Shown: positions 3,179 to 27,754 of the stretch, piece after piece | How positions within the stretch are numbered: the stretch's first letter is position 1 | Layout of the letters: every line of letters starts with the position of its first letter | Virus record (IMG/VR): IMGVR_UViG_3300030430_004151 | Coordinates: 6,749-34,601 of that record | DNA length: 27,853 nucleotides | Source: a virus | Reading direction: 5' to 3' (one strand) | Made by a program: the position numbers and the translations under genes | Notes under the pieces: generated by a model | Told to the model about the DNA's origin: nothing | The model's database searches: none | What the model saw: only the letters and a program-made list of their open reading frames with translations

Positions 3179-3712
3179 ATGGCTCTTTGGGGTACAAAAG
3201 ACACAGTATACTCTACAGGTAAGGTTGACGTCAATGTTACCACAGGAGTAGTCACAAGATCAGCTGGCACTATTAATTGGACATCAGGTAATGGTGTAAA
3301 GGTTGGGCAGGTAATTACCATAGATGGAACTGCTGAAGGTGTTATTAAAAGTATTGATACACCAAGTGGTAACAGTGCTCAATTAACAATCACCACTAAA
3401 CACCTACCTGCTGCTAATATTAGTAATAAGAATTATGAAATTCGTGAGAAACCCAAATCAACACTTGGCGATACAAATTACGGAGCAGGTGAAATTTACG
3501 GTGTAGATGTAACTGAAGCACAATTAATAGGTTCAGGAACAACAGCAACTGCGACACAGAAAAAATTCAGTCCTGCTCACGCTGGCTGGGTTGGCATTAC
3601 TACATATGTTGACGGTAATGGGAATTTCAGAGTAAAAACAGAAGTATTAGTTGCTGGCAGTTCAATATCTGGTGACGCATCAGACGACGCTAAACTTCCT
3701 GATGCTTTATAA
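3179..3712 (+). CDS. Conserved virion-type structural protein
   Basis: 177 residues, beta-rich, with many Thr, Gly, Val and Asn. It begins MALWGTKDTVYSTGKVDV and ends with a conserved-looking block containing SPAHAGWVGITTYVDG, a combination found in small structural proteins of marine T4-like phages. The middle (KVGQVITIDGTAEGVIKSID) reads as short beta strands. No enzymatic signature or signal peptide is present. The perfect late promoter upstream fits a virion component. The exact location (head decoration, neck or tail) cannot be told. A weak AGG lies ~10 nt before the ATG. Confidence 0.75.
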   Translation: MALWGTKDTVYSTGKVDVNVTTGVVTRSAGTINWTSGNGVKVGQVITIDGTAEGVIKSIDTPSGNSAQLTITTKHLPAANISNKNYEIREKPKSTLGDTNYGAGEIYGVDVTEAQLIGSGTTATATQKKFSPAHAGWVGITTYVDGNGNFRVKTEVLVAGSSISGDASDDAKLPDAL

Positions 3713-6070: not shown

Positions 6071-6544
6071 ATGAGTGACGTTGAATTTAAGAAGCATCGT
6101 GTGTTCCGTGAAACACAGGATGTTATTTTTTATGACATATCAGTTGATGAATCAAATGCAGCTGATCTTGTAGTTCATACTGGTGCTGCTGTATCACCTC
6201 CAGATGATACTGTAGGAGCAAAACAGTTTTATCTACACGAATATCAAGATGACTATAATCGGGTGGTGTCAGGAGAAAGAACCTTTGAGTTAGTTAATCT
6301 TGATTGGAAGTATCCATATCATATTGTTCATTTAAATCGTGCGAGTGGGGCATTAGTTATACCAAGAAATACATATCATCGCTCAATATCAGGAGAGAAC
6401 GGTTCAATCGTAATCAATCAGGCAAAGAGATATGATGGATTTAATGCAAGTGAAGAGTTTATACCAAGATCCTCTGCTATAAATCCAGATTTATATGCTA
6501 TACTACTAGCAGAAAAACCTGTAATTCATACATTAGGTGAGTAA
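6071..6544 (+). CDS. Cupin-like conserved hypothetical protein
   Basis: 157 residues, beta-rich. The C-terminal half has the turn pattern of a cupin barrel: SGALVIPRNTYHRSISGENG, where IPRNTYHRS resembles the IPxGxxHR strand of cupins, followed by SIVINQAKR. The first-motif H-x-H-x(n)-E set is not clear, so metal binding is uncertain. The N-terminus (VEFKKHRVFRETQDVIFYDI) is charged. The gene overlaps the primase start by 1 nt (TAATG) and is probably co-transcribed with it. Function is unknown; the cupin call is inference from fold pattern. Confidence 0.6.
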   Translation: MSDVEFKKHRVFRETQDVIFYDISVDESNAADLVVHTGAAVSPPDDTVGAKQFYLHEYQDDYNRVVSGERTFELVNLDWKYPYHIVHLNRASGALVIPRNTYHRSISGENGSIVINQAKRYDGFNASEEFIPRSSAINPDLYAILLAEKPVIHTLGE

Positions 6545-12273: not shown

Positions 12274-12283
12274 TGCTTAAGCA
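12274..12283. other. Perfect 10-bp palindrome at the convergent gene junction
   Basis: TGCTTAAGCA spans the 5-nt gap between the converging oxygenase and adhesin stops. It has no T-tract and only a 5-bp stem, so it is not a convincing terminator, although no other terminator is visible here. Confidence 0.3.
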
Positions 12284-14064
12284 TGTGTAACTCCAGTTGC
12301 AGTTTGACTTCCAGTAACACTTCCAGTTTGTGCATTACTACCAAATAAAGTTGAATTTGCTGCATTAGATATAGTTACAGTAATACTACCACTTGTTTTA
12401 CGGATGGCAGCACCTGATGCACCACCAGTTCCACCTTCTCCTGTTACGTTTTCTTCATTTTCTGGAGTTCCTGTGTGCACACCTTGTGCTCCGTTTCCAC
12501 CTTTAGATGTTGTTCCATCACCTCCATTATTTCCATTGTCTGTTGGGTTTCCTTCACCATCAGTTCCAGCTCCACCTCTTCCACCTTCGCCAGCAAGACC
12601 ACCACCGCCACCACCACCACCGTGGGCTAGTTTATTTTCTCCCCCATTTCCACCTTTACCACCAGCAGTATTACTACCACTTTCACCAGCATTACCACTT
12701 GCATTTACTGTTTCTAATTCTTGTTCCTCTATTCTCCATAGTTGGTTAACAGGAGAGTTATCAACTTGTACATTTGGTATTCCATTTGTGGAACCAGTAC
12801 TACTGTTTCTTAAATATCTTTTAGAACCAACACCACTACCAACTACAAGTGGATCACCATTTGTATTAATACCAACAATCTGATCACTTCTTACAAATTT
12901 AAATTCTTCACTAATTGATGCAACATCAAATTTAAAATTAGAAGTACCTCCACCAAGATTATTAGTAACTGTAATTGTATCGTTTACTACATATCCTTTA
13001 CCACTCTGGTTAACAGCGACATTAGTAACTACACCACCAGTGCCAACCGTTATAGTAAAAGTAGCAGTATTGTTGCCAGCTCCTTCATTAGTATACTCTG
13101 AAGCACTGATACTGTAGTTTCCAACACTTCTACCTGAATCTGTAGTATTTTTGAAATTATCTACACTTTGAATTATACCCATCTTTCTAAACACTCCATC
13201 AGTGACATCTGCAACATTTACTACTGTGGAAGTAGTATTAAAAAAAACACCTTTGTCAGCGTAAGCTTCTACAGTTCCTCCACTACCCTGTACACCACCA
13301 CTGCCATTCGGTATTCCTTGACCGCCACCACCGCCACCACCATTAGCTCTGTATACTGGTCCTTGCCAAGCTTCTTCTTTTTCTAAGCGTCTATAACCAC
13401 CACCGCCACCACCGCCACCACCAGCAAGGATTGATCCATTATTGATAATTGCTGTTCCCTCATATTGAATACCTAGACCACTACTTCCATCTGTACCATT
13501 TCCTCCATTATTTGCAGGTACTGATTCTTCGGAACCTCCACTAGTTCCACCAGCACCGCCATCTCCACCTGCACCACTTATCAAACCAGAAGATCCAACT
13601 TCAACACTTAAAACTGTTCCAGTCTCCCACTCATTTCCAGTTCTTACAGCACAGTGAGTGACGTTACCTTTTGAAGAACCAATATTTTTATTAACGTGTA
13701 TTCTTACTTTACTACCAGATGAATCATTTACAATTCTATCTTTTGTTGCAGGAAATCCAATCACAGTTCTATTTCCACTCGCTGATCCTGTCTGATATTT
13801 TTCTCTTGCATCAGCTGGATTATTTGCATCAGAAGTATAATAATCTATAATCACATTTAATCTTTTACTGTAAAAATCACTAAATGAAATTTGACTAGAA
13901 CCAACAGCAACAGATTGTGGTATACCAGTATCTAATGGTTGATTAATTAATCCACCCACAGTTTGACTAATTCTATAAGCACCAAGATTATTGTTAGGTG
14001 CTTCACCAAACTCAAATTCTATTTCACTAAATGCTAATGAACTTCCAGAATTTTTAATTGCCAT
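12277..14064 (-). CDS. Glycine-rich tail adhesin-like protein
   Basis: 595 residues. The N-terminus (SLAFSEIEFEFGEAP, then GLINQPLDTGIPQ and SFSDFY) is a conserved leading module of marine phage tail proteins. Two glycine-rich regions follow (residues ~159-263 and ~457-550) with uninterrupted Gly runs at 215-223, 242-248 and 482-489; they are separated by a non-Gly domain (~265-455) containing a NYSISASEYTN and GTGGVVTNVAVNQSGKGY beta-repeat unit. The pattern recalls the polyglycine-II sandwich of T-even gp38 adhesins, where variable loops between Gly motifs bind the receptor. It starts directly after the S74 fibre stop, with GGAGAG as ribosome-binding site. Receptor binding is inference. The polyglycine tracts use GGT/GGC codons and raise local GC. 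Confidence 0.75.
   Translation of the reverse strand: MAIKNSGSSLAFSEIEFEFGEAPNNNLGAYRISQTVGGLINQPLDTGIPQSVAVGSSQISFSDFYSKRLNVIIDYYTSDANNPADAREKYQTGSASGNRTVIGFPATKDRIVNDSSGSKVRIHVNKNIGSSKGNVTHCAVRTGNEWETGTVLSVEVGSSGLISGAGGDGGAGGTSGGSEESVPANNGGNGTDGSSGLGIQYEGTAIINNGSILAGGGGGGGGGYRRLEKEEAWQGPVYRANGGGGGGGQGIPNGSGGVQGSGGTVEAYADKGVFFNTTSTVVNVADVTDGVFRKMGIIQSVDNFKNTTDSGRSVGNYSISASEYTNEGAGNNTATFTITVGTGGVVTNVAVNQSGKGYVVNDTITVTNNLGGGTSNFKFDVASISEEFKFVRSDQIVGINTNGDPLVVGSGVGSKRYLRNSSTGSTNGIPNVQVDNSPVNQLWRIEEQELETVNASGNAGESGSNTAGGKGGNGGENKLAHGGGGGGGGLAGEGGRGGAGTDGEGNPTDNGNNGGDGTTSKGGNGAQGVHTGTPENEENVTGEGGTGGASGAAIRKTSGSITVTISNAANSTLFGSNAQTGSVTGSQTATGVTHA
12598..12621 (-). repeat. (GGN)8 tract encoding eight consecutive glycines
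   Basis: Trinucleotide tract in the adhesin-like gene, residues 482-489 (GGT and GGC codons on the minus strand). Such tracts are prone to slippage by whole codons, which would change Gly-run length without breaking the frame. Confidence 0.8.
13321..13341 (-). repeat. (GGN)7 tract encoding seven consecutive glycines
   Basis: Residues 242-248 of the adhesin-like protein. It follows the loop EAWQGPVYRAN, which separates it from the nine-glycine run; this loop is a candidate variable tip. Confidence 0.8.
13396..13422 (-). repeat. (GGN)9 tract encoding nine consecutive glycines
   Basis: Residues 215-223 of the adhesin-like protein, the longest Gly run, directly before the charged aromatic loop YRRLEKEEAWQGPVYRAN. 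Confidence 0.8.
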
Positions 14065-14745
14065 TTATCTCTCCAAAGTTTTTAATTCATCTACTTCTGA
14101 TTTAAGTTCTTTGATTGCTTCGATTAATAATGGAACGAGTTTATGATATTGTACTGATTTATACCCAGAATCTTGATCTTTGACTATTCCAGGTAATCCG
14201 AGTGCTTCAATTTCTTGTGCAATTATACCAGTATCTTCTCCTTCATAATAAGAATTTCCTTCCTTCCAAGTAAATGTATTACCACTAATTGAAAGCACCT
14301 TAGCAAGAGGATCTTCAATAGGTGTGATGTTATCCTTTAAGTTTTCATCTGATGAAGAATAGAAAGCAGTAATATCTCCAGTTACACGTAATGCTCCAGT
14401 AATATCTATACCTGTACTAAGAGTCTTTAATTTTTCATTACCACTAGCAGCATGACATAGTTTTACCTCACCAGTAGAGTGAGTCATGACTATAAAATTA
14501 TCGCCATTACTCTTTTCAAATACCATTTGATTGCCAGCAATTTGCAATCTCAAATCATCACCACTTCCAGTTGATACGTTATGTAAAATTTTACTGATTC
14601 CGCTAGAAGTGTGTTGTATTGATAATTCTCCTGAATTTCCTAATTTTATAGAATTAGAATCATTCAATTGTAAACTATCACTAGTGGGCAATTCTTGTAT
14701 CTGATTTGCATCACTATTAACTATCAGGGGGATTCTATCTGCCAT
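14065..14745 (-). CDS. Short tail fibre with C-terminal S74 intramolecular chaperone
   Basis: 226 residues. The N-terminal ~125 (ADRIPLIVNSDANQIQELP onward) is a small beta-rich fibre segment. Residues ~130-226 are a Peptidase_S74 chaperone: SDENLK places Ser132 and Lys137 in the S-D-x-x-x-K arrangement of the self-cleaving Ser/Lys dyad, followed by DTGIIAQEIEALGLPGIV, YKSVQYHKLVPLLIEAIKEL and a short coiled coil. In this family the chaperone trimerises the fibre and then cuts itself off just before the serine. Here cleavage would leave a fibre of only ~131 residues, unusually small. A late-type CATAAATA lies 24 nt upstream. The stop abuts the adhesin start. Confidence 0.88.
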   Translation of the reverse strand: MADRIPLIVNSDANQIQELPTSDSLQLNDSNSIKLGNSGELSIQHTSSGISKILHNVSTGSGDDLRLQIAGNQMVFEKSNGDNFIVMTHSTGEVKLCHAASGNEKLKTLSTGIDITGALRVTGDITAFYSSSDENLKDNITPIEDPLAKVLSISGNTFTWKEGNSYYEGEDTGIIAQEIEALGLPGIVKDQDSGYKSVQYHKLVPLLIEAIKELKSEVDELKTLER

Positions 14746-14768: not shown

Positions 14769-14776
14769 TATTTATG
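14769..14776 (-). promoter_or_regulatory. Late-promoter-like CATAAATA (minus strand)
   Basis: Reads CATAAATA on the minus strand, 23 nt before the fibre ATG, one base from the T4 late consensus. It is the only promoter-like element for the leftward tail genes. Confidence 0.55.
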
Positions 14777-16180: not shown

Positions 16181-16408
16181 ATGATTGAAGTGATTCGTCA
16201 AAAAGATCCTTACAGGTATGTGAAGATGCCTGATCTACTTGAGAATGGTCAACCAGACTATCGTATTCAGAAATGGAATAATTATAATGGTTACAAAGAT
16301 ATGTACCTTTGTGATAATTGGATGCAAATGAAAACAGCTATTCAAGATTTTGAATACACAAAATGGTTAGATCCTGCAGGTGTACCTTGTTATATTAAAG
16401 ACGAATGA
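16181..16408 (+). CDS. Small conserved hypothetical protein
   Basis: 75 residues from ATG 16181, chosen because GGAGG (16166-16170) lies 10 nt upstream; a GTG at 16145 would overlap the previous gene by 31 nt. The protein is rich in aromatic residues ([20 protein letters not shown], then [16 protein letters not shown]) and Pro/Gly turns. No motif is recognised. Its stop overlaps the first gene of the sugar cassette by 4 nt (ATGA). Confidence 0.65.
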
Positions 16409-16743
16409 AATATGAAAGACCTTGGGGATGGTATATAACAATTGATGAGGGGTATGGGTATAAGGTAAAAAGAATAGAAGTTAAACCTAATGCAAAACTT
16501 TCATTACAGTTGCACCATCATCGTGCAGAACATTGGATAGTTGTAAAAGGAACTGCTTTGGTTGAAGTGGGTAAAGATCAAATAATACTACACGAAAATC
16601 AAAGCACTTATATTCCTATAGGATCAAAACATCGACTTTCAAATCCAGGTTCAATACCTCTTCAGATAATTGAAGTTCAAAGTGGAATGTATCTTGAAGA
16701 AGATGATATTGTCAGGTTTGAAGATTCTTATGGAAGAAGTTGA
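16405..16743 (+). CDS. Cupin phosphomannose isomerase-like protein (type II MPI domain)
   Basis: 112 residues, a single cupin corresponding to the C-terminal isomerase domain of ManC/type II mannose-6-phosphate isomerases. It starts with ERPWGWY and has [20 protein letters not shown] (H37-H39, E42, H43), [14 protein letters not shown] with H76, and closes [20 protein letters not shown]. It would interconvert fructose-6-P and mannose-6-P, feeding GDP-mannose synthesis. The GDP-mannose pyrophosphorylase half is absent and no pyrophosphorylase or phosphomannomutase is in the window, so host enzymes would have to complete the route. It opens the glycan cassette, before the sigma-70-like promoter. 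Confidence 0.85.
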
Positions 16744-16768
16744 CAATTTGTGTAGATAGTAGTAATAT
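16740..16768 (+). promoter_or_regulatory. Sigma-70-like promoter TTGACA-17-TAATAT for the glycan cassette
   Basis: Perfect -35 TTGACA (16740-16745) overlapping the stop of the cupin gene, 17-bp spacer, TAATAT as -10 (4 of 6 bases). AAGGAA follows just before the ATG at 16796. Placement in the only sizeable gap of the cassette suggests it drives the downstream operon early in infection. Confidence 0.6.
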
Positions 16769-16795
16769 AGATATATTATTACTCAAGGAAAAAAA

Positions 16796-17875
16796 ATGAG
16801 TCAATACAAAAAAACAGCATTAGTATTAGGTGCAGGTGGATTCATCGGTAGTCATATGGTGAAGAGACTTCGTTCTGAGGGATACTGGGTACGTGGTGTT
16901 GATCTTAAAGAACCAGAGTTTTCAAAAACAGAAGCAAATGAATTTGTTATCGGTGATTTAAGAGAAGTTAGTTTTGTTCGTCGTGTAATTCAATTCAAAG
17001 GTTATCAAGGTAACTTTTATAATTCAGTCCCATATCGATTTTTAGAATCATTCGATGAGATTTATCAGTTTGCTGCTGATATGGGTGGTGCAGGTTTTGT
17101 ATTCACTGGTGAAAATGATGCAGATATTATGCATAACTCTGTATCAATTAACTTAAATGTTCTTGAGGAGCAACGTAAATTTAATGAAGATTATAAAGTA
17201 AATAAAACAAAAATATTTTACTCTGGTTCAGCATGTATGTATCCAGAGCATAATCAACTTGACCCTAATAATCCTGATTGTCGTGAATCATCAGCATATC
17301 CAGCAGACCCAGACTCAGAGTACGGATGGGAGAAACTCTTTTCTGAACGTCTATACCTCGCTTACAGTCGTAATTACGATATTCCTGTGCGTATTGCCAG
17401 GTATCATAATATCTTCGGACCAGAAGGAACTTGGGAAGGAGGTAGAGAAAAAGCACCAGCAGCAATCTGTAGAAAAGTAGCTTATGCAGGTCTTGCCGAT
17501 ACTATCGAAGTATGGGGTGATGGTGAGCAGACTCGATCATTCCTTTACATTGATGAATGTATTGAAGCAACACGTAGATTGATGGAATCTGATTTTATAG
17601 GACCTGTGAATATTGGTTCAGAAGAGATGGTTACTATTAATGAGTTAGTAAGAATAACTGCAAAAGTAGCACACAAATCTATAGGCAGAAATCACATTGA
17701 AGGTCCTTTAGGTGTTCGTGGACGTAACTCAAATAATGATCTCGTTAGAGAAAAATTAGGATGGGATTATTCACAACCTCTTGAAGAAGGTATTCGCAAA
17801 ACTTATGAGTGGATTGAAGAGCAAGTAGAACCATTAAAAGCAGAGGAGGATCTCGAATTACTTTATAATTCATAA
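16796..17875 (+). CDS. GDP-mannose 3,5-epimerase homologue
   Basis: 359 residues, extended SDR. GAGGFIG (12-18) binds NAD. Features shared with plant GDP-mannose 3,5-epimerase (GME) are unusually complete: AADMGG, SACMYPE with C147 (catalytic acid/base), EYGWEK with Y176 and K180, RYHNIFGP, GGREKAPAA with K219 (second acid/base), WGDGEQTRSF, FIGPVNIGSEEMV and GPLGVRGRNS. GME converts GDP-D-mannose to GDP-L-galactose (and GDP-L-gulose). An apparent insertion of ~20 residues (about 66-86, GYQGNFYNSVPYRF) precedes AADMGG. GDP-mannose is the natural substrate of the family; a GDP-heptose is an alternative here. It overlaps the next gene by 1 nt. Confidence 0.88.
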   Translation: MSQYKKTALVLGAGGFIGSHMVKRLRSEGYWVRGVDLKEPEFSKTEANEFVIGDLREVSFVRRVIQFKGYQGNFYNSVPYRFLESFDEIYQFAADMGGAGFVFTGENDADIMHNSVSINLNVLEEQRKFNEDYKVNKTKIFYSGSACMYPEHNQLDPNNPDCRESSAYPADPDSEYGWEKLFSERLYLAYSRNYDIPVRIARYHNIFGPEGTWEGGREKAPAAICRKVAYAGLADTIEVWGDGEQTRSFLYIDECIEATRRLMESDFIGPVNIGSEEMVTINELVRITAKVAHKSIGRNHIEGPLGVRGRNSNNDLVREKLGWDYSQPLEEGIRKTYEWIEEQVEPLKAEEDLELLYNS

Positions 17876-18723
17876 TGAAAGTTGCTATTCTTGGTTCAAG
17901 TGGTCAGATAGGTGCATATCTTACAGAGTATCTTCGTAAAAAAGAACATTTAGTAAGAGAATTTGATATTGTAAATGATCCACATGAAGATATGACTCAC
18001 ATCCCAAATCCATTTTTACGAAATGTAATTATGGATTCTGATTTTGTTTTCTTTCTTGCATTTGATGTTGGTGGTTCACACTATCTAAAGAAGTACCAAC
18101 ATACTTTTAAGTTTCTTGATAATAATGCAAGAATGATGGCAAATGTTTTTGGTCATTTGAGTGATTATAAAAAACCATTCGTATTTGCATCATCTCAGAT
18201 GAGTAATATGAGTTACTCTCCATATGGTGTGATGAAAAGAGTTGGTGAGATGTATACAAAATCTCTAGATGGATTAATTGTTAAGTTTTGGAATGTATAT
18301 GGCATTGAAAATGATATGGAGAAAGCACATGTAATCACAGATTTTATACGAAAAGGGTTTGAAACTGGCATTATAGATATGATGACAGATGGAACTGAAG
18401 AAAGGGAGTTTCTTTATGCCGAAGACTGTTGTGAAGCGTTGGAGTCCGTTATGCAAAACTATGATCGACTCACTTCTAATGACGAACTTCATATTACTAC
18501 TGGTAATTCCACAACTATATTGGAAATTGCACAAAATATACAAAAATTATTTTCCAACATTGGAAAAGAAGTTGTAATTAAACCAGCAGATTCTAAAGAT
18601 GAAGTACAGAAAGATGCTAGAAATGTATCAGATCCTTACATACAAAAATTTTGGAGATCTACAACTTCAGTAAAAGAGGGTTTGACAAAAGTATTTTATG
18701 AAATGAAAAAAAATTATGAGTAA
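17875..18723 (+). CDS. NAD-dependent sugar epimerase/dehydratase (extended SDR)
   Basis: 282 residues. GSSGQIG (7-13) is the dinucleotide-binding loop, FASSQMS supplies the serine (S106/S107), and Y117-x3-K121 (SPYGVMK) the catalytic pair. KFWNVYG and TDGTEEREFLYAEDC are the standard substrate-domain blocks, so the fold is complete. The specificity is not evident: it is not a clear GDP-mannose 4,6-dehydratase or GDP-fucose synthase. Being next to the GME homologue suggests a GDP- or UDP-sugar substrate. It overlaps the GT10-like gene by 8 nt. Confidence 0.8.
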   Translation: MKVAILGSSGQIGAYLTEYLRKKEHLVREFDIVNDPHEDMTHIPNPFLRNVIMDSDFVFFLAFDVGGSHYLKKYQHTFKFLDNNARMMANVFGHLSDYKKPFVFASSQMSNMSYSPYGVMKRVGEMYTKSLDGLIVKFWNVYGIENDMEKAHVITDFIRKGFETGIIDMMTDGTEEREFLYAEDCCEALESVMQNYDRLTSNDELHITTGNSTTILEIAQNIQKLFSNIGKEVVIKPADSKDEVQKDARNVSDPYIQKFWRSTTSVKEGLTKVFYEMKKNYE

Positions 18724-19516
18724 GTTTAAATTTAATCTTTATTGTAATGATACATTAGAACCATCAAGTTCTGATAAAAATACACCAAAATATGTAGAAT
18801 GGGATTATCACGGAAATGGTGATGTTAATTTATATGTTAGTCAAAGAGCTCTCGATGCGATTAATGATAGATCAGGAAAACCAACTTATATTTGGTTATT
18901 AGAATCAAGACAAATTATTCCTCAATTTTATGATTGGGTTTTGAATAATTATGATTTTGTGATGTCAAGAGTTGATGGTATTTTTAGTTGTGATGAATCT
19001 GTTTGTGAAAAGTATGAAGGTGTATCTTATGGTATTACAAACGCAGCACCTTGGGTAGTAGATAGACAGATCTATAAAAAAACTAAATTAGTATCAATGA
19101 TTGCATCAAATAAAAGAATGTGTGAAGGTCATTTAAAAAGATTATCTTTCGTTGATAAGTTCAGAGATAAATTAGATTTTTATGGTCGTGGTTTTAACGA
19201 AATATCTTGTAAAGAAGAAGGATTGAAAGATTATATGTTTTCTGTTGGTATTGAAAATGCAGTTTATGATACTTACTTTACAGAAAAACTAACAGATTGT
19301 TTTGCTTGTGGGACGATTCCAATATTTTACGGGTGTAGAGGAGTTACAAAATACTTTAATGAAGATGGTATTATATTTTTAGATGACAACTTTGATTTAT
19401 CTACCTTGACAGAAGACTTATATTACTCTAAAATAGAAGCAGTAAAAGATAACTTTGAAAGAGCTATCAATTTTCCAGTTGCGGAAGACTATCTTTATAC
19501 AACTTATTTTAAGTAA
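18716..19516 (+). CDS. Glycosyltransferase, GT10 fucosyltransferase-like
   Basis: 266 residues. The C-terminal half has the GT10 donor-site blocks: IASNKRMCEGHLKRLSFVDK (129-148), similar to the xxSNCxxxxxR..xV motif, and GIENAVYDTYFTEKLTDCFA (178-197), matching FENSxxxDYVTEKLYDAL, followed by CGTIPIFYGC. In this family these residues bind GDP-L-fucose (alpha-1,3/1,4-fucosyltransferases). The protein is shorter than most bacterial GT10 enzymes and lacks a membrane anchor, so it acts in the cytoplasm. The actual donor may be another GDP-sugar. A 3-nt gap separates it from nadE. Confidence 0.75.
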   Translation: MSKFKFNLYCNDTLEPSSSDKNTPKYVEWDYHGNGDVNLYVSQRALDAINDRSGKPTYIWLLESRQIIPQFYDWVLNNYDFVMSRVDGIFSCDESVCEKYEGVSYGITNAAPWVVDRQIYKKTKLVSMIASNKRMCEGHLKRLSFVDKFRDKLDFYGRGFNEISCKEEGLKDYMFSVGIENAVYDTYFTEKLTDCFACGTIPIFYGCRGVTKYFNEDGIIFLDDNFDLSTLTEDLYYSKIEAVKDNFERAINFPVAEDYLYTTYFK

Positions 19517-19519
19517 CTT

Positions 19520-20296
19520 ATGAACCGTATAGAAAGTTATCCAAAGTTAACAATTGATATTGTAAAATGGATAAAAGATTATTATTACTATAATAATATT
19601 GACACTCTTGTTGTTGGTGTGTCTGGTGGAATTGACTCTGCTGTTGTATCTACATTATGTGCAGAGACAGGTCTTCCAACTTATGTGATTACTATGCCAT
19701 TAGATTCAAAGAAAGAGAATACTGAGTTGTCAAATTTACATGCTAAAGAACTTGATGAGAAGTATGAAAATGTCGAAATTTTAGATATAGATTTATCAGG
19801 AGTATTTCATACTTTAATCTCTACTATAGGACTTCAAACAAGTAAAGAAGGATATACTTATAATCGAGATTTAATTACGAATGAACATTCAAATGCGAAT
19901 ACTAAATCAAGATTACGTATGGTAACTCTATATCAGATTGCAGGTTCAGTTGGTGGTATCGTTGTTGGTACAGGAAATAAGGTAGAAGATTATGGTGTAG
20001 GATTCTATACAAAGTATGGTGATGGTGGTGTTGATATTGCACCGATTGCTGATTTATATAAAACTGAAGTATGGGAATTAGGAAAACATTTAAAAGTCAA
20101 TGAACTTATAATCAAAGCTAAACCAACTGATGGTTTATGGGGTGACTCAAGAACTGATGAAGATCAACTTGGAGCATCATATGAACAGTTAGAAGAGGCA
20201 ATGGAATATGGCACAGGTCCTGCTGTAAAAATATTGGGTGAATATAATGAAAGAAATAAACATAAAATGAATCCTATACCTACATTTAAATTATGA
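19520..20296 (+). CDS. nadE: NH3-dependent NAD synthetase
   Basis: 258 residues, single-domain type without a glutaminase module. SGGIDS (35-40) is the ATP-pyrophosphatase PP-loop. ANTKSRLRMVTLYQIA and GTGNKVEDYGVGFYTKYGDG, then IAPIADLYKTEVWELG, are the family signatures for NaAD and ATP binding. It converts nicotinate adenine dinucleotide, ATP and ammonia to NAD. Its place inside a sugar cassette between a GT and an NAD-linked dehydrogenase suggests NAD support for those enzymes or restoration of NAD during infection. A related PP-loop amidotransferase acting on a sugar is a weaker alternative. The stop overlaps the next start (ATGA). Confidence 0.88.
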   Translation: MNRIESYPKLTIDIVKWIKDYYYYNNIDTLVVGVSGGIDSAVVSTLCAETGLPTYVITMPLDSKKENTELSNLHAKELDEKYENVEILDIDLSGVFHTLISTIGLQTSKEGYTYNRDLITNEHSNANTKSRLRMVTLYQIAGSVGGIVVGTGNKVEDYGVGFYTKYGDGGVDIAPIADLYKTEVWELGKHLKVNELIIKAKPTDGLWGDSRTDEDQLGASYEQLEEAMEYGTGPAVKILGEYNERNKHKMNPIPTFKL

Positions 20297-21459
20297 AAAT
20301 AGGAGTTATTGGAGCAGGAAGATTAGGAATATGTTTTGCTCTTCTTTGTGAAGCAGCAGGATATGAAGTAGTCGTTTCTGATATTAGAGAAGATTATGTA
20401 AATGATCTCAATCAAAGAAAAATTGAAACTACTGAACCAGAGGTAGAGAATCTTTTAAAGGTAGCAAAAAACTTTAGAGCAACCACAAGCAATCAACAAA
20501 TTATTAGAGAATGCGATTTAATTTATACACTAGTACCAACACCATCATTAGAAGATGGTTCTTATGATGTATCTGCAGTTTGGGAAGTTGTAGAAGATTT
20601 CAAACAAGAAATGAAAATAGCAAACTATCCTAAAAATTTTATTGTAGGATGTACGACAAATCCTGGTGATTGTGAATTGTTCCGAAAAGAATTACCACAG
20701 AGTGTAAGTGTATATTATAATCCAGAATTTATTGCACAAGGATCGATTGTTAGAGATTTGAGAAAAGCAGATATGGTTCTACTTGGATACAGTCCTTCTA
20801 ATTCTGAATATGAAAAAACAATATATGAAATTGAAGAGTTATATAAAAAGATACAAACAACCAGAGCAATCGTTTGTGTGATGTCAAATACATCTGCAGA
20901 GATTACAAAGATAGCTTTGAATTGTTTTCTTACAACTAAAATCAGTTATGCAAATATGCTTGGTGATGTTTTAAGAAATGCTGGTTGTGGAGATGAAATA
21001 CCAACTGTATTGAGTGCAATTGGAACTGATAGTCGAGTCGGTAGAAAATATCTTAGATATGGATTCGGTTATGGCGGTCCTTGTTTCCCTAGAGATAATA
21101 GAGCATTTGCTTCATTTGCAAAAAATGTTGGTTTAGATTATAATTTAGGATATGTTACTGATGCAATCAATAATCAACATGCTAAATTATTATGTGATTA
21201 CTATGATCAAGTCAACGAAAATCTACCTTTCTTTTTCTCATATATAACTTACAAGAAAGGAACTGACATCTTAACTGAAAGTCAACAATATCGTTTGTGT
21301 ATTGATCTTTTAGATAGGGGTCGCAAGGTTTACATTCAAAATGATACTCGTGTCATACCACAAATTAGATCTGAACTAATTGATAAGTATGGAGATAGAG
21401 TAAAAATTGTAGATAACAAAGAAAACATTACTGAAAAGATTTTTATTATTGAATTATGA
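20293..21459 (+). CDS. UDP-glucose/GDP-mannose-type 6-dehydrogenase
   Basis: 388 residues, the usual family length. GAGRLG (7-12) begins the NAD domain. YNPEFIAQGSIVRDL, NCFLTTKISYAN (K216, N221) and GYGGPCFPRD with catalytic C264 are the family signatures. A C-terminal YKKGTDILTESQ matches the FKxxTDDIRES donor-domain motif. It would oxidise the C6 hydroxyl of a nucleotide sugar to the uronic acid in two NAD-dependent steps. UDP-Glc, GDP-Man and UDP-ManNAc cannot be told apart by eye. It is a large NAD consumer directly after nadE, overlapped by 4 nt. It overlaps the following GT11 gene by 4 nt. Confidence 0.9.
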   Translation: MKIGVIGAGRLGICFALLCEAAGYEVVVSDIREDYVNDLNQRKIETTEPEVENLLKVAKNFRATTSNQQIIRECDLIYTLVPTPSLEDGSYDVSAVWEVVEDFKQEMKIANYPKNFIVGCTTNPGDCELFRKELPQSVSVYYNPEFIAQGSIVRDLRKADMVLLGYSPSNSEYEKTIYEIEELYKKIQTTRAIVCVMSNTSAEITKIALNCFLTTKISYANMLGDVLRNAGCGDEIPTVLSAIGTDSRVGRKYLRYGFGYGGPCFPRDNRAFASFAKNVGLDYNLGYVTDAINNQHAKLLCDYYDQVNENLPFFFSYITYKKGTDILTESQQYRLCIDLLDRGRKVYIQNDTRVIPQIRSELIDKYGDRVKIVDNKENITEKIFIIEL

Positions 21460-22316
21460 TTGGATATGATAGATTAGGTTGTAATGGTCGTCTGGGTAAT
21501 CAGATGTTTCAATATGCAGCATTAAGAGGTATTGCTGCAAAAAGAAATTTTGAATGGAAAATACCTCCAGAGGATTATGACCATACAGCTAACTATGGTC
21601 TTTTTGAAACATTTGAAATGTCAGATGTTAAAGAAAATAATTTTGGATTTATCAATGGTGAAATTGCATCAGAAAATGATCACTGTTTTATTGAAGAATT
21701 TTTTACTGAATGTCCAGACAATATATCTTTAGATGGTTTCTTTCAAACAGAAAAATATTTTAATCATATAGAAGATCAAATTCGTAAAGAGTTTACATTC
21801 AAAGAACAATATTTAAAACCTTGTAGAGATTATATTGATTCACTAGATAAAGCACCTATTTTTTTACATATTCGCCAAGCAGATAATATAGGAAGAGAAC
21901 AATATCATCCAATACTACCTATATCATATTTTGAAGAATGTCTTCAAGAATTTCCAGAAGATACACCTTGTTTTGTTTTTACTGATGATTTGAATTGGTG
22001 TAAATCTCAAGATTACTTTAATCAAGATAAGTTTTTATTTAATGAAAATGCCGACAGGTATGACTATGTAAGTATGGATGGTCTTGGTAAAATGCAGAAT
22101 ACATTGTTACCACAAGTTGACTTATGTTTGATGTCTTTGTGTTCTGGTGCTATAATAGCAAATAGTTCTTTCTCTTGGTGGGGTGCTTGGTTGCAAAATG
22201 ATCGTGGAAAAGTGATTGCTCCAGATCCTAAAAAATGGTTTGGAACATCAATGACACATTTGGATACATCAGATGTTGTACCTGAACGTTGGTTAATTAA
22301 AGAATGGAGTAAGTAA
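21456..22316 (+). CDS. Glycosyltransferase GT11-like (alpha-1,2-fucosyltransferase fold), copy 1
   Basis: 286 residues. GRLGNQMFQYAALRG (11-25) is the GT11 motif near the N-terminus, DLCLMSLCSGAIIANSSFSW and WGAW (222-244) the closing motif. The donor-binding HxRRxD motif reads HIRQAD (138-143), with the second Arg replaced by Gln. GT11 enzymes transfer L-fucose from GDP-fucose to form alpha-1,2 linkages. The substitution may shift donor preference or lower activity. First of three paralogues in 4.1 kb. The gene is followed by an FkbM-like methyltransferase (1-nt overlap). Confidence 0.88.
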   Translation: MIGYDRLGCNGRLGNQMFQYAALRGIAAKRNFEWKIPPEDYDHTANYGLFETFEMSDVKENNFGFINGEIASENDHCFIEEFFTECPDNISLDGFFQTEKYFNHIEDQIRKEFTFKEQYLKPCRDYIDSLDKAPIFLHIRQADNIGREQYHPILPISYFEECLQEFPEDTPCFVFTDDLNWCKSQDYFNQDKFLFNENADRYDYVSMDGLGKMQNTLLPQVDLCLMSLCSGAIIANSSFSWWGAWLQNDRGKVIAPDPKKWFGTSMTHLDTSDVVPERWLIKEWSK

Positions 22317-23014
22317 TGCTTGATTATAAAACTTTAAGTTATGCAAATGACATTGGAGCAGGTGGTCTTCAAGATATATTTGCTATGATTGTTTTTGGTA
22401 AAGAATACAAAGGAACTTTTGTTGATATTGGATGTCGTCATCCAGTATTACATAGTAATAGTTATTTGTTGGAACAATATGGTTGGAAAGGATTTGCAGT
22501 TGACTTAGAATTTTATACTCCAGAGTGGAAACAATATAGACCAAATTCTGTATATAAAAATATGGATGCTTTTATGGTAAATTATGAGCAACAGTTTAAA
22601 AATTTAGAAATGGAATCACCAATAGATTTTCTTTCTGTTGACTTAGAACTTCCTGGTGAAAGATTGAATATATTAAAAAAAGTATTTGAAACTGGTTATG
22701 AATTTAAAACGATTACAATTGAGCATGATGCATATTGCCAACCAGTAGAATTAGAAAAAATACCGCAAAGAGAATATCTCACAGAAAAAGGATATACTCT
22801 TGTAAGGAAAGATGAGATTATTGAAGACTTTTGGATTAATCCAAAGTATATTAATGAGGATCAATATCAATTATTAAAATCACATAATACTGGTCCTGAA
22901 GAAATACATCCTTGGATATTTTTAAAACAAGAACATAATTATGATTGGATGCACTTCTATGATCAAATAGATTTTAATAGTATTCCTGAATTTGTAGACT
23001 CTAAACCTTATTAA
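22316..23014 (+). CDS. FkbM-like SAM-dependent methyltransferase
   Basis: 232 residues. The core FVDIGCRHPVLHSNSYLLEQ (35-54) has the SAM-binding glycine-containing loop and the N/S-rich helix of the FkbM family; GFAVDLE follows as the second acidic motif, and PIDFLSVDLELPGERLNIL and ITIEHD the later strands. FkbM-type enzymes often O-methylate sugar hydroxyls in glycan clusters. Acting on a glycan product of the neighbouring transferases is likely but inferred. No signal or TM segment. Confidence 0.75.
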   Translation: MLDYKTLSYANDIGAGGLQDIFAMIVFGKEYKGTFVDIGCRHPVLHSNSYLLEQYGWKGFAVDLEFYTPEWKQYRPNSVYKNMDAFMVNYEQQFKNLEMESPIDFLSVDLELPGERLNILKKVFETGYEFKTITIEHDAYCQPVELEKIPQREYLTEKGYTLVRKDEIIEDFWINPKYINEDQYQLLKSHNTGPEEIHPWIFLKQEHNYDWMHFYDQIDFNSIPEFVDSKPY

Positions 23015-23018
23015 TACA

Positions 23019-23906
23019 ATGACTATATCATTTAATGGACTTGGTAATGAAGGTCGTCTTGGCAATCAAATATTTCAATATGCTTTCATTCGTGGATTAG
23101 CTGCAAAAACAGGATACGATTGGATGATACCACCAGATGGATCTAGTCGTTTTGATAATTATGGTTTATTTGAATGCTTTGAATTGACTGGATGTAAACA
23201 AACTGGAGAAGGATCATTTCAAACATTAGAATGTAGAGATACTTTATTTCATCCAGAAATATTTACAGATGCAAGAGATAACATTAATTATTCTGGAACA
23301 TATCAAACAGAAAAATATTTTGAACATATTGATACTGAGATAAGAAAAGATTTAACTTTTCAAAAGGGTTACTTAGAACCCTGTCAAGAATTTATTGATA
23401 GTCTTGGTGGCAGAGATAATTGTATATTTCTACACGTACGTAGAGGAAATCCAAACATAACAGGAAGAAGAGGAGAAAAATGGTCATATCAAATGCTACA
23501 GGAGTATCATCCATTATGTAAGAAAGAATATTATATTGAAGCACTAAAAAAATTTCCAAAAGATAAAAATGTAATTATTGTTTCAGACCTTATTGATTGG
23601 TGTAAGAAACAAGATTGGTTGCAAGAGGATAGATTTTATTTTTCTGATTCTTCTTATGAAACTTTTGGTGATGGTGCAAGTGTTCCATATATTGATTTAT
23701 GTTTGATGTCATTATGTGGTGGCGGTATTATTGCTAACTCATCATTATCATGGTGGGGAGCGTGGTTACAAAATAATACTGGTAAAATAGTTGCTCCTGA
23801 TCCTTGGTATGGATCAGCAAATGCACATCTTGATACAAAAGATCTAATACCAGATAGATGGATAAAAATTCATAATGATCCTACACCAATTACTCCAGAA
23901 GAATGA
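23019..23906 (+). CDS. Glycosyltransferase GT11-like, copy 2
   Basis: 295 residues. EGRLGNQIFQYAFIRG is the N-terminal motif, IDLCLMSLCGGGIIANSSLS and WWGAW the C-terminal motif. The donor motif reads HVRRGN (139-144), with the final Asp of HxRRxD replaced by Asn and followed by an unusual Arg/Gly insert (PNITGRRGEKWSYQMLQEYH) absent from copy 3. Both arginines that grip the donor diphosphate are kept. Fold and family are clear; donor specificity is not. It forms a pair with the GT-A gene downstream (4-nt overlap), repeated in the next two genes. Confidence 0.88.
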   Translation: MTISFNGLGNEGRLGNQIFQYAFIRGLAAKTGYDWMIPPDGSSRFDNYGLFECFELTGCKQTGEGSFQTLECRDTLFHPEIFTDARDNINYSGTYQTEKYFEHIDTEIRKDLTFQKGYLEPCQEFIDSLGGRDNCIFLHVRRGNPNITGRRGEKWSYQMLQEYHPLCKKEYYIEALKKFPKDKNVIIVSDLIDWCKKQDWLQEDRFYFSDSSYETFGDGASVPYIDLCLMSLCGGGIIANSSLSWWGAWLQNNTGKIVAPDPWYGSANAHLDTKDLIPDRWIKIHNDPTPITPEE

Positions 23907-24703
23907 ATTTAACATTTCTAATTCCAGTTAAAATTGAATCAGAAGATCGTGTAAGAAATCTTACTACAGTATTGACGTATATACTGAATAAGTTTGATGC
24001 AAAAATTTTAGTTCAAGAACATGATAAAGTTCAAAGATTTAATGATCTTATTCTACCTAATATTCCTAAATCAGATAATATTGAATATACTTTTGATCTT
24101 CAAACAAATAATTATTTTCACAAAACCAAAATACTTAATGATCTTTTATTGAGATCTGATACTGAAGTTGTCTGCAACTATGATACTGATGTTCTTCTTC
24201 CAGAAAAAACATATACAGAAGCATATCGATTAATTAAGAGTAAACAATATGATGCTGTGTATCCATATGGTTGCGGTATTTACCAAAAAGCTGTAACATA
24301 TACACAGGAAACTTTTGAAAAGTTTTTAAATTCAGACTTAAATGTTCAGAGTTTGGATAAACATGCTAGAATACATAACTCAACTATTGGATGGTGTCAG
24401 TTTGTTCGTAGGGAAAATTACATTAAATCATTTATGATGAACGAAAATTTTCATGCATGGGGTCCTGAAGATTCTGAATTTTATTATCGATTGAGTGTGC
24501 TTGGTAATCGAATAGCTCGAATAAATGATTTTGTATATCACTTGGAACACTCAAGATCAAATGATTCTTGGTTTTCAAATCCTCTATGGAGAGAAAACAC
24601 ACAACTCTGGCATTGGATTCAATCTCAATCTGGAGAAACTTTTTTGAACTATTATCAAAATCAAGATTATTATAAAAGGAGATTGAAAGATGTTAGGTCT
24701 TAA
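23903..24703 (+). CDS. Glycosyltransferase, GT-A fold, copy 1
   Basis: 266 residues. The N-terminus (LTFLIPVKIESEDRVRNLTT) is the first GT-A strand and donor loop. YDTDVLLP (93-100) is the DxD motif (D94, D96) that binds the metal and nucleotide sugar. NFHAWGPEDSEFYYRLSVLG (182-201) with WGPED is the C-terminal acceptor/catalytic block of galactosyltransferase-like (GT7-type C-terminal) enzymes. It ends YHLEHSR. Family assignment beyond GT-A/GT2-like is uncertain. It is paralogous to the gene at 25493. No membrane segment. Confidence 0.8.
   Translation: MNLTFLIPVKIESEDRVRNLTTVLTYILNKFDAKILVQEHDKVQRFNDLILPNIPKSDNIEYTFDLQTNNYFHKTKILNDLLLRSDTEVVCNYDTDVLLPEKTYTEAYRLIKSKQYDAVYPYGCGIYQKAVTYTQETFEKFLNSDLNVQSLDKHARIHNSTIGWCQFVRRENYIKSFMMNENFHAWGPEDSEFYYRLSVLGNRIARINDFVYHLEHSRSNDSWFSNPLWRENTQLWHWIQSQSGETFLNYYQNQDYYKRRLKDVRS
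24676..24681 (+). promoter_or_regulatory. Strong Shine-Dalgarno AAGGAG for the third GT11 gene
   Basis: AAGGAG inside the end of the GT-A gene, 8 nt before the ATG at 24690, supporting this start despite a 14-nt overlap with the preceding gene. Confidence 0.6.
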
Positions 24704-25496
24704 TTATCTTGGAAAGATGGGACAACTTGGTAATCAAATGTTCCAATATGCAGCATTAAAAGGTATTGCTACTAAACATAATTATCAATGGTGTATTCCA
24801 AATCATAAACAAGTAGTTGATGATGGAATAGGAAACAAATTAAGAATCGAATTATTTGATTGTTTTAAATTAGAAAGTGTTCAAGCATTTGGAATGTTGC
24901 ATAATGGTCATGCACCTATTGTGCAAGAAAAACACTTTCATTTTGATAAAGATCTTCTTGAATTGTGTCCAGATGAAATTTCTTTGGTTGGATATTTTCA
25001 GTCTGAAAAATGGTTCAAACATATTGAAAAAGATATAAGAAAAGACTTCCAATTTCACGATGAAATTCTAAGTCCTTGTAAGGAGATGATAGAAGGAGTA
25101 ACTTCTCCAGTGGCAGTTCACATTCGAAGGGGTGATTTTATAATTAATTCTGCAAGACATCATAATTTATCTTTAGAATATTATGAGAAAGCATTAAAAC
25201 ATTTTGATAAAACTTCTACCATTATTGTATTTTCAGATGATCCAGATTGGTGTAAACAACAAAAAGTATTTGATGATGATCATATATTAGTTGCAGAAGG
25301 AAATACAAATTATGTTGATTTATGTTTGATGAGTTTATGTGAGGGACATATAATTGCAAACAGCACTTTTTCTTGGTGGGGAGCTTGGTTAGCAGATAGT
25401 CAAAAAGTTATAGCACCAAGTATATGGTTTGGTGAGGAACTCAAATCAGTAAATGATATTAAAGATCTTTATCCTAAATCATGGGAGGTTCTATGA
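24690..25496 (+). CDS. Glycosyltransferase GT11-like, copy 3 (canonical motif)
   Basis: 268 residues. GQLGNQMFQYAALKG (11-25) opens the fold; the donor motif HIRRGD (144-149) is the canonical HxRRxD, unlike copies 1 and 2; VDLCLMSLCEGHIIANSTFS and WWGAW close it. It would transfer L-fucose or a related GDP-sugar in alpha-1,2 linkage. It starts behind a strong AAGGAG inside the preceding gene. Its stop overlaps the next start by 4 nt (ATGA). Confidence 0.9.
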   Translation: MLGLNYLGKMGQLGNQMFQYAALKGIATKHNYQWCIPNHKQVVDDGIGNKLRIELFDCFKLESVQAFGMLHNGHAPIVQEKHFHFDKDLLELCPDEISLVGYFQSEKWFKHIEKDIRKDFQFHDEILSPCKEMIEGVTSPVAVHIRRGDFIINSARHHNLSLEYYEKALKHFDKTSTIIVFSDDPDWCKQQKVFDDDHILVAEGNTNYVDLCLMSLCEGHIIANSTFSWWGAWLADSQKVIAPSIWFGEELKSVNDIKDLYPKSWEVL

Positions 25497-26317
25497 AGAA
25501 AGATTTAAAAGATTGTACTTTTATTATTCCAATTCGTATTGAATCAACTGATAGACTTCGAAATGTAATTACTATTCTTTGTTATCTTAATTCTAATTTT
25601 GATACTAATATAATAGTAAAGGAAGTAGACAAAGAATCAGTATTCGATAAAGATGCATTACCACAAGTTGAAGAGTATTGTGGGGATGTTTCTAATATCA
25701 AATACATATTTGAAAAATCTGATGATCCAATATTTTTAAGAGAGAAAATTTTAAACGAAATGTTAGTTTTAACATCAACAAATGTTGTTGTTAATTATGA
25801 TTGTGATGTTGTATTTCCAGTAACATCTTACTTGGAAGCATATAGAAAGATTATGGAAAATGAAAGTGATATGGTTTATCCATATGGTGAAGGTCCTTGG
25901 CAATATAAAATTTTCTGTGATGATCAAATGGTATCAGACTTTTTAAATAATGATTATGATTTTAATATTCTAAAAAGAAAATCATATAACGACAATGCAG
26001 GAGAAGGATGGGTGCAGTTTATAAAAAGAGATGTTTACTTTGAAGCAGGTATGGAGAATGAAAATTTTATGGGATCTGCACCTGATGACTTTGAAAGAAG
26101 ATATAGATTTACAACTTTAGGATATAGAGTTGACAGAGTAAATGATTACATCTATCATTTAGAACATAGTCGAGGTATGAATTCTTATCCACAGTCTATG
26201 TCACAGCATCCATATTGGAAACATAACTGGGGATTATGGGAACAATTAAAAGAATATTCCAAAGAACAATTAATTGACTATTATTCAAAACAAGAATACT
26301 TGAACAAATATAATTAA
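25493..26317 (+). CDS. Glycosyltransferase, GT-A fold, copy 2
   Basis: 274 residues from ATG 25493, chosen for the ATGA overlap and GGGAGG just upstream; an ATG at 25481 adds four residues. It is paralogous to the gene at 23903: CTFIIPIRIESTDRLRNVIT, YDCDVVFP with D103-x-D105, GYRVDRVNDYIYHLEHSR. The catalytic block differs: GSAPDDFERRYRF replaces the HAWGPEDSEFYYRL of copy 1, so the Trp-Gly is lost and the acidic pair is Asp-Asp. The copies probably act on different acceptors. It overlaps the kinase gene by 1 nt. Confidence 0.8.
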   Translation: MKKDLKDCTFIIPIRIESTDRLRNVITILCYLNSNFDTNIIVKEVDKESVFDKDALPQVEEYCGDVSNIKYIFEKSDDPIFLREKILNEMLVLTSTNVVVNYDCDVVFPVTSYLEAYRKIMENESDMVYPYGEGPWQYKIFCDDQMVSDFLNNDYDFNILKRKSYNDNAGEGWVQFIKRDVYFEAGMENENFMGSAPDDFERRYRFTTLGYRVDRVNDYIYHLEHSRGMNSYPQSMSQHPYWKHNWGLWEQLKEYSKEQLIDYYSKQEYLNKYN

Positions 26318-27264
26318 TGTACGTTGCATCTTGCCCACTTCGAATCTCTTTGTTTGGAGGTTCTACAGATAACCCTTACTTTGTTGAGAAGTATGGTCGT
26401 GGTTCTGTGATTAGTTTTACATCCACATTAAAAACTTATGTCACTATTAGTCAGGATAAATTTGGTTTTAATAAAGACAAGCACAAATATATTATAAATT
26501 ATTCGAAGAGAGAAGAAGTTTCAAGTATTGATGATATACAGAATGAAGTAGTAAGAACAGTATTAAAGTATTATAATATGCCTCCTGTATTAGTCGCTTT
26601 AACAAGCGATGCGTATTCGCAAGGAAGTGGTTTAGCATCTTCTTCATCTTATACAATTAGTCTTATTAAAGCTTGTTGTTTATTTTTAGGCAAATCAATT
26701 ACAGATAGTGATGCCTGTAAACTTGCATATAATTTGGAAAGAACTTATAACCCTTATTGTGGGTATCAAGATCCATATGGTTGCGGTGTTGGTGGGTTTA
26801 AAAGGATTAATTTTATGGGCGATAACTCTATTACATATGAGTTTCTATCTACTGATATATTTAAGCACTATGATACTCATCTTGTCTTTACTGGTGTTAC
26901 GAGAAACTCGAAGAAAATCCTCAAAGATATTACAGAAAATTTAGATAAAATTAAACCACTTTTAAAGACTGCCGATACTGCATATGATGTTCTACAGTCA
27001 AATGATTATGAAAAATTTTTATATTTAATTGGAAAGAGCTGGCATCAGAAAAAAGAAACATCTTCTACGATTATGGAGAGTGATATTATAATAGAAATGG
27101 ATTATATATTAGAAAAAAATGAAACTGTATGTGCACATAAATTATGTGGTGCAGGTAATGGTGGATTCTTTTTAATATTTTCTGAAAAAGATACCTTGAA
27201 TATTCCACTTCATTGTGTTAAAATAGATATTGAGACATCGGGTGTATATGGTAAATCCATTTGA
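26317..27264 (+). CDS. hddA-like: GHMP kinase, D-glycero-D-manno-heptose 7-phosphate kinase-like
   Basis: 315 residues. PLRISLFGGSTDNP (7-20) is the N-terminal signature of heptose-7-phosphate kinases (HddA). GSGLASSSS (103-111) is the GHMP ATP-binding loop, and HKLCGAGNGGFFLIF (~280) the third motif. HddA phosphorylates heptose-7-P at C1 in the GDP-heptose route. The GmhA-like isomerase directly downstream supports heptose over other GHMP substrates such as fucose or mevalonate. Overlaps the next gene by 17 nt. Confidence 0.82.
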   Translation: MYVASCPLRISLFGGSTDNPYFVEKYGRGSVISFTSTLKTYVTISQDKFGFNKDKHKYIINYSKREEVSSIDDIQNEVVRTVLKYYNMPPVLVALTSDAYSQGSGLASSSSYTISLIKACCLFLGKSITDSDACKLAYNLERTYNPYCGYQDPYGCGVGGFKRINFMGDNSITYEFLSTDIFKHYDTHLVFTGVTRNSKKILKDITENLDKIKPLLKTADTAYDVLQSNDYEKFLYLIGKSWHQKKETSSTIMESDIIIEMDYILEKNETVCAHKLCGAGNGGFFLIFSEKDTLNIPLHCVKIDIETSGVYGKSI

Positions 27265-27754
27265 TGAATACATAGAGACTTTAAAATCTGCACATATGGA
27301 AGTTGAGTTCTTCAAGTTTCAGAAAGCATTTTATACTCACAATAGAATAATAGTATTGGGTAATGGTGGTAGCAACTCTGTTGCTTCTCATATATCTCAA
27401 GATTACATGAAGTTTCATAATAAGAAAGTTTCAATACTTTCTGATCCTTCTATGATCACAATGCTTACGAATGATTTTGGTTATGAGTTTGCATATCAAA
27501 AATTTTTAGAATATTATGTTGAGTCAGATACTCTTGTGATTATTATAAGTTCTGGCGGTGAATCACCAAATATGATTAACTGTTTGAACTGGTGTGAAAA
27601 AGAAAATATAGATTATGGAGTATTGACAGGATTCGAAGGTGATAATACAATAAGAACGGTTGCAAAAAATGCACTTTGGAATTACTATATTGATAGTAGT
27701 AACTATGGTGTGGTTGAGTGTGTACATCAAATTTTTCTTCATGGAGTTGTATGA
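27248..27754 (+). CDS. gmhA-like: SIS-domain phosphoheptose isomerase, GmhA-like
   Basis: 168 residues from ATG 27248; a TTG at 27230 and GTG at 27242 are in frame but less likely. IIVLGNGGSNSVASHISQDY (34-53) is the SIS sugar-phosphate-binding loop and IIISSGGESPNMI (98-110) the second loop. A late VVECVHQIFLHGV supplies the histidine expected near the GmhA active site. GmhA converts sedoheptulose-7-P to D-glycero-D-manno-heptose-7-P, the substrate for the kinase just upstream. The usual active-site Glu after the first loop appears as Asp (QDY), so activity is likely but not certain. It overlaps the HAD gene by 4 nt. Confidence 0.82.
   Translation: MVNPFDEYIETLKSAHMEVEFFKFQKAFYTHNRIIVLGNGGSNSVASHISQDYMKFHNKKVSILSDPSMITMLTNDFGYEFAYQKFLEYYVESDTLVIIISSGGESPNMINCLNWCEKENIDYGVLTGFEGDNTIRTVAKNALWNYYIDSSNYGVVECVHQIFLHGVV

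Follow-up and report, generated by a model that had tools for sequence, protein, structure and literature searches.

A short S74 fibre gene and an adjoining gp38-like polyglycine adhesin gene form a putative receptor-binding tip module in a T4-like cyanophage contig

The minus strand of an uncultivated virus contig encodes a short fibre with an S74 domain and, directly after it, a gp38-like polyglycine adhesin. We think it likely (probability about 0.8) that the two genes, P0002 and P0001, form a late operon making a receptor-binding tip, with cleavage, docking and cassette exchange. Under this model, both genes would be transcribed as one late two-gene unit, and P0002 would trimerise via its S74 domain, which would then cut itself off at Ser132 and leave a short trimeric stub of ~131 residues. 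P0001 would dock on the exposed stub end by its conserved N-terminal anchor and project a polyglycine sandwich of the gp38 kind. The distal loops of this sandwich, including one that a ~200-residue domain makes larger, would touch the host surface. The S74 domain and the adhesin may be swapped as a cassette between close phages, leaving the mature stub unchanged. Little is known about the receptor-binding tips of T4-like cyanophages, and the pair supplies a recognisable, widespread adhesin family that probably decides which marine cells such phages infect. The pair would also carry the gp37-gp38 scheme over to a fibre of minimal length.

Gene pair, genomic setting and neighbouring genes

The window, meaning the whole stretch of DNA analysed, is 27,853 nt long and corresponds to bases 6749–34601 of a 34.6-kb uncultivated virus record that is itself a fragment. 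Profile searches found ribonucleotide reductase and tryptophan halogenase among its genes and, judged by sequence, the window genes and their relatives are those of T4-like cyanophages. Photosystem II reaction-centre genes occurred in all five related contigs of at least 84 kb. By way of these relatives the host is probably a marine cyanobacterium, that of the window phage itself being presumed.

The first-pass annotation described a minus-strand S74 fibre and a directly adjoining protein with Gly runs of 9, 7 and 8, and this stood in full. Both ORFs lay exactly where it put them, P0002 at 14065–14745 (226 aa) and P0001 at 12277–14064 (595 aa), and the runs span P0001 residues 215–223, 242–248 and 482–489. 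Three Gly runs of at least seven appeared in 0 of 20,000 composition-preserving shuffles of P0001. The fibre TAA (14067–14065) abuts the adhesin ATG at 14064 with a gap of 0, and this junction (14062–14074, minus strand) includes a Shine-Dalgarno-like GGAGAG at 14074–14069, just upstream of the adhesin ATG. Such abutting codons suggest that fibre and adhesin are translationally coupled. A late-promoter-like site, CATAAATA, lies 23 nt upstream of the fibre ATG (14769–14776, minus strand), and the ATAAATA at 14769–14775 is the sole minus-strand copy in the window. The sequence NATAAATA, which we take to be the cyanomyovirus late promoter, was found 19–23 nt before the ATG in 8/8 related fibre genes listed. 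Over the whole window ATAAATA occurred 5 times against 18 expected by chance, possibly through avoidance outside late promoters. A plus-strand ORF at 12404–12883 was taken as no gene, being a Pro-rich antisense reading of Gly codons.

Other window genes also drew our attention. The tryptophan halogenase (PF04820, E = 3e-36) lies at 1796–2899, and genes of this kind recur near the fibre-adhesin cluster, including in L006 and L007 (judged by eye from sequence similarity) and as gp052 of S-SRM01, between fibre and adhesin. Positions 16405–27754 hold a nucleotide-sugar/glycan cluster with epimerases, UDP-sugar dehydrogenase-like, GHMP kinase-like and SIS-domain genes and three related fucosyltransferase-like genes, all names being judged from sequence. 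The gene at 6071–6544 matched phrog_9052 (E = 2e-86), whose label 'hemagglutinin' is doubtful, and stood at 99.4% in the sibling contig discussed below.

The convergent neighbour of the adhesin, P0003 (11609–12271, plus strand), is a 2OG-Fe(II) oxygenase (phrog_61, E = 9.2e-20). Oxygenases of this class, of three kinds and either co-directional or convergent, were the next gene in 57 of the 71 loci with enough downstream sequence. Those same loci were the source of the profiles, and since the loci share ancestry the count is not a formal statistic. A check with public families placed one immediately downstream in 7/10 contigs, and several long contigs carried other 2OG genes elsewhere. Phage 2OG oxygenases have been proposed to act in DNA repair (PMC9146016), and our literature search found no paper tying them to fibres. 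Fibre, polyglycine adhesin and oxygenase might form a conserved three-part unit in which the oxygenase chemically modifies the adhesin or the fibre ahead of assembly, for instance by hydroxylation, much as collagen is treated by prolyl hydroxylases. The stretch from the autocleavage site on would then be an exchanged cassette by which host recognition is reset. We consider this quite improbable. The recurrent neighbour suggests a role open to experiment for enzymes that have so far been guessed to serve in DNA repair (PMC9146016). In the sibling, the P0003 homologue (G001:C1:8638-9281) is broken into two reading frames at about residue 148–154, by a frameshift or an assembly error.

The fibre stub and the predicted adhesin fold

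Residues 1–131 of P0002 (14353–14745, minus strand) comprise a virion-type head (MADRIPLIVN...) and a short beta stem and are the predicted mature fibre; a MADRFPLIVN head also occurs on virion structural proteins, those of Syn1 among them. Residues 132–226 (14065–14352, minus strand) make up the S74 intramolecular chaperone/autocleavage domain with a coiled-coil-like C-terminal end (PF13884, 46.9 bits vs a cut-off of 22, E = 3.3e-12). Among its best PDB matches was S16 gp37 in the S16 gp37-gp38 structure (6f45_A, E = 7.6e-6). The Ser132-Lys137 dyad is intact, both residues are invariant in alignment A4, and their +5 spacing is that of the endoNF catalytic dyad S911/K916 (PMC8326128). Given this Ser-Lys motif, P0002 would be expected to cleave itself. 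If it is cut like other S74 domains, the mature protein would have ~131 residues, a stub rather than a fibre of gp37 length, and L018-type relatives would be left with a mature fibre of ~60 residues. The earlier claim of an S74 fibre was right about the domain and needs correcting on the fibre, which is predicted to be a ~131-residue stub. One related S74 fibre (L059:1004-1846) was without the SDxxLK dyad motif and is possibly non-cleaving.

Searched against 350,542 PDB chains, the P0001 model had one match at E ≤ 1e-3, the PP01 gp38 RBD (9v85_A, E = 5.1e-4, probability 1.0). The compact relative L018, without the insert described below, was modelled at pLDDT 84 and pTM 0.86 and also had a single significant PDB match, again PP01 gp38 (9v85_C, E = 8.6e-5, TM 0.52 on target). 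A BFVD search with the P0001 model gave three significant matches, two of them annotated Gp38 (1.7e-9 and 6.8e-6). Foldseek rmsd values for the gp38 matches were high (7.6–7.9 Å), and some of the identical positions are simply Gly in both proteins. L001, which comes from annotated phage records, was left out of the structure-prediction alignment. P0001 may adopt polyglycine II packing.

Sequence searches found the likeness among the relatives. Of 69 relatives, 14 matched PF05268 (GP38) at E ≤ 10, the best of them at 3.4e-7; no other Pfam family was matched by more than two relatives, and phrog_2056 ('tail fiber protein; host specificity') was matched by 21 (best 1.9e-10). P0001 itself had no PF05268 match in the Pfam search, direct Pfam and PDB sequence searches with it gave compositional matches only, and the anchor profile compared with PDB by sequence returned no gp38 and only chance matches to hemagglutinin.

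From its N-terminus, P0001 consists of an anchor domain (residues 1–75, 13840–14064), a beta domain (76–156, 13597–13839; AF2 pLDDT about 72–94), a first Gly-rich part (157–262, 13279–13596) with G9 at 13396–13422 and G7 at 13321–13341, an inserted domain (263–461, 12682–13278; pLDDT largely <50), a second Gly-rich part (462–552, 12409–12681) that includes G8 at 12598–12621, and a C-terminal beta part (553–595 plus stop, 12277–12408), all on the minus strand. The anchor carries the conserved pattern FSEIExEFG...LGxYR...SGxIKFSDFY and was modelled with short helices at 12–19, 27–30 and 61–64. The ~200-aa insert follows the fifth Gly motif and had been overlooked in the earlier description of P0001. 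It is common to L021 and partly to L024, is absent from compact relatives, and by parity of the Gly motifs would sit at a distal loop. Its repeat-like core had no match in phage records.

Low-complexity composition and the low-confidence insert could be taken to mean that P0001 serves as a disordered or collagen-like spacer with no receptor role. Against this, the Gly runs keep their positions across 69 sequences, AlphaFold confidence in the Gly-rich parts is mostly 75–97 (with two weak stretches, 501–515 and 522–530) rather than that of a disordered region, and the model matches gp38, so that we find a spacer very improbable. A non-virion assembly chaperone would have its precedent in the T4 gene 38 product, which helps gp37 fold and is absent from the mature tip (PMC6851490, PMC12892980). 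However, T4 gp38 is unlike the Gly-rich gp38 in sequence (PMC6851490), the fibre already brings its own chaperone in the S74 domain, and it is the adhesin type that P0001 matches in fold; this role seems very unlikely for P0001.

A tip adhesin remains our preferred reading of P0001, and its resemblance to gp38 extends to topology. In S16 gp38 the short extension has two Gly helices and the long extension eight (PMC6851490). L018 and P0001 have two Gly motifs before the strands at ~188–213 and about nine after them (counted by eye), a modelled arrangement that fits S16 gp38. The attachment domain of S16-type gp38 has three helices, each with a conserved Trp (PMC6851490), whereas P0001 residues 1–75 contain no Trp at all and so lack these plugs. 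For want of such Trp-bearing helices we did not file P0001 as S16-type gp38; we regard it as a gp38-like variant outside the strict type that would act like an S16-type gp38. PP01 gp38 needs its loop-B for OmpC adsorption (PMC6851490, PMC12892980), and the P0001 loop YRRLEKEEAWQGPVYRAN (residues 224–241, 13342–13395, minus strand), between the third and fourth Gly motif, may be the positional equivalent, going by the apparent location of loop-B. The gp37-gp38 analogy drawn in the first-pass annotation is stronger than sequence alone suggested, with the gene order found in ~75 relatives, the fold match to PP01 gp38, the PF05268 matches in 14/69 and an S74 domain like that of S16 gp37.

Conservation, divergence and exchange

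Across the 69 sequences, Gly positions formed near-invariant columns (median entropy 0.62 bits) and non-Gly positions in the Gly-rich parts had the highest values (2.87 bits), followed by the beta domain (1.86 bits) and the anchor (1.35 bits), the lowest of the non-Gly segments. The hypervariability expected between Gly runs was found; its confinement to them was not, since sibling divergence extends to the beta and inserted domains. Loop YRRLEKEEAWQGPVYRAN, previously singled out as a receptor-contact candidate, varies across the family but is fairly conserved in the closest clade, where R[KR]xE[KR]EE..GPV is mostly kept in the nearest eight sequences.

The sibling contig, IMGVR_UViG_3300029319_007281, has ~95% identity to 25 kb of the window. 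The fibre stem (residues 1–129) was 99% identical at the amino acid level (dN 0.003, dS 0.037), mismatches in P0002 turned dense from codon 131–134, which is the predicted autocleavage site, and the S74 domain dropped to 72% (dN 0.21, dS 0.498). P0001 was the most divergent of 28 genes (dN 0.258; most others 0.000–0.013). By segment, its dN was 0.11 in the anchor, 0.35 in the beta domain (61% amino acid identity), 0.21 and 0.29 in the Gly-rich parts and 0.31 in the insert, with segment dS values of 0.19–0.47. The anchor was the least changed part of the adhesin, as expected if it has to fit a constant stub. These sequence comparisons suggest that the S74 domain and the adhesin are an exchangeable tip cassette. 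Fast drift of the ordinary kind, with selection relaxed or diversifying and no cassette exchange, would fit the high dN throughout the adhesin, but dS jumps from stem to S74 domain and adhesin as well, and the change starts at one point. The dS jump alongside dN therefore favours recombinational import, and we hold drift to be distinctly unlikely. The sibling pair is a natural experiment, two phages differing mainly in the tip cassette. The second most divergent gene between them lies at window 3179–3712 (82.7% amino acid identity; phrog_3086, no known function).

The anchor was common to 77 non-redundant proteins, 75 of the Gly-rich type, from marine contigs and two single-cell viruses. Because the Gly pattern dominated the results when viral contigs were searched with the full-length alignment (A1), the N-terminal alignment (A2) was used instead; 247 of the first 600 candidate IMG/VR stretches matched and ~75 members were kept. 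Isolates of the phage collection included no close member of the P0001 family. The gene upstream was an S74 fibre in 26 of the 77 relatives and another fibre type in 42, usually at a gap of -4 to +8 bp. These 42, whose directly upstream fibre is without S74 (MANIKKxFNFRNGVQVDDDNL type), count against our model and make it uncertain which fibre is capped. P0001 could be gp38-like and cap a different long fibre, with P0002 an independent short fibre that merely adjoins it. Several loci had an S74 long fibre one gene further upstream, and other fibres of the virion are out of view in the window record, a fragment of 34.6 kb. In the clade of the window (L014, L017–L024, L035), however, the short S74 stub alone precedes the adhesin at a gap of 0–4 bp, the late-promoter-like site is conserved, and S74 and adhesin diverge together. 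We regard a different capped fibre as unlikely, though deserving real weight, and favour docking of P0001 on the P0002 stub.

A divergent anchor heads the gene directly after an S74 fibre in vB_OspM_OC (fibre S74 E = 2.8e-15, gap 2 bp), Itty13 and phiXF1. It is joined to a Gly-rich domain in the first two, to an Ig-like-looking domain in phiXF1 and possibly to a lectin in S-CREM2 gp86. The immediate upstream genes of the anchor genes in DLP_6 and KVP40 had no S74. The anchor looks like a candidate general plug for S74 fibre ends. Anchor-like stretches in KVP40 and the Vibrio F86/K575 group were set aside, with no identified fibre adjoining. Unnamed in Pfam, the domain occurred with differing C-terminal domains directly after S74 fibres of unrelated phages (L132:3001-3840, L135:3001-3675, L131:3001-3483, L108, L109, L110, S-CREM2 gp86). 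In the vB_OspM_OC anchor, Trp recurs at three repeat-like positions (GWIS, RWLSW, IWLSQFYG).

Comparison with known tip systems

The S16/T2/PP01 gp37-gp38 tips (PDB 6F45, 9V85; PF05268) share with the window pair an S74-ended fibre followed by a Gly-rich adhesin. The S74 domain is homologous to that of S16 gp37, the predicted P0001 fold matches PP01 gp38, and both systems have two Gly-rich extensions between beta segments and variable segments between Gly motifs. The window pair differs in its 131-residue fibre stub, its anchor without the three Trp plugs, its probable marine cyanobacterial host, and a longer adhesin with the ~200-residue domain after the fifth Gly motif. Jiaodavirus gp38 (175 aa) was dropped as a comparison, not being Gly-rich.

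Among cyanophages, the closest annotated relative of P0001 is S-SRM01 gp053 (hhalign with the family E = 1.7e-5, probability 78), described as part of a 'gp37-gp38 adhesin tip complex' (PMC8557907). It too is a Gly-rich adhesin within a Kyanoviridae fibre cluster, but the tryptophan halogenase gene intervenes between fibre and gp053, and it has a Cys-rich loop and a freshwater host. Pam3 gp24, a myocyanophage fibre (PMC9608196), shares the Gly-rich motif lattice and variable distal loops. It differs as a single trimeric fibre with a TNF-like domain and a separate chaperone, gp25, with S74 not described (PMC9608196). A Pam3-type fibre was ruled out for the window pair, whose fibre and adhesin are separate ORFs with the S74 chaperone inside the fibre.

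S-CREM2 gp85-gp86 pairs an S74 long fibre with a tip-type protein, present in virions, whose gene comes next at -1 bp, and ORF86, whose virion detection rests on one peptide, is the nearest proteomic precedent for P0001. Unlike P0001, gp86 has a laminin-G lectin domain, just a short Gly run and weak anchor similarity. The vB_OspM_OC p046-p045 and Itty13 pairs share the arrangement of an S74 fibre followed within 2 bp by an anchor plus Gly-rich protein, and differ in their hosts, Ochrobactrum and Pseudomonas, and in lacking the large insert.
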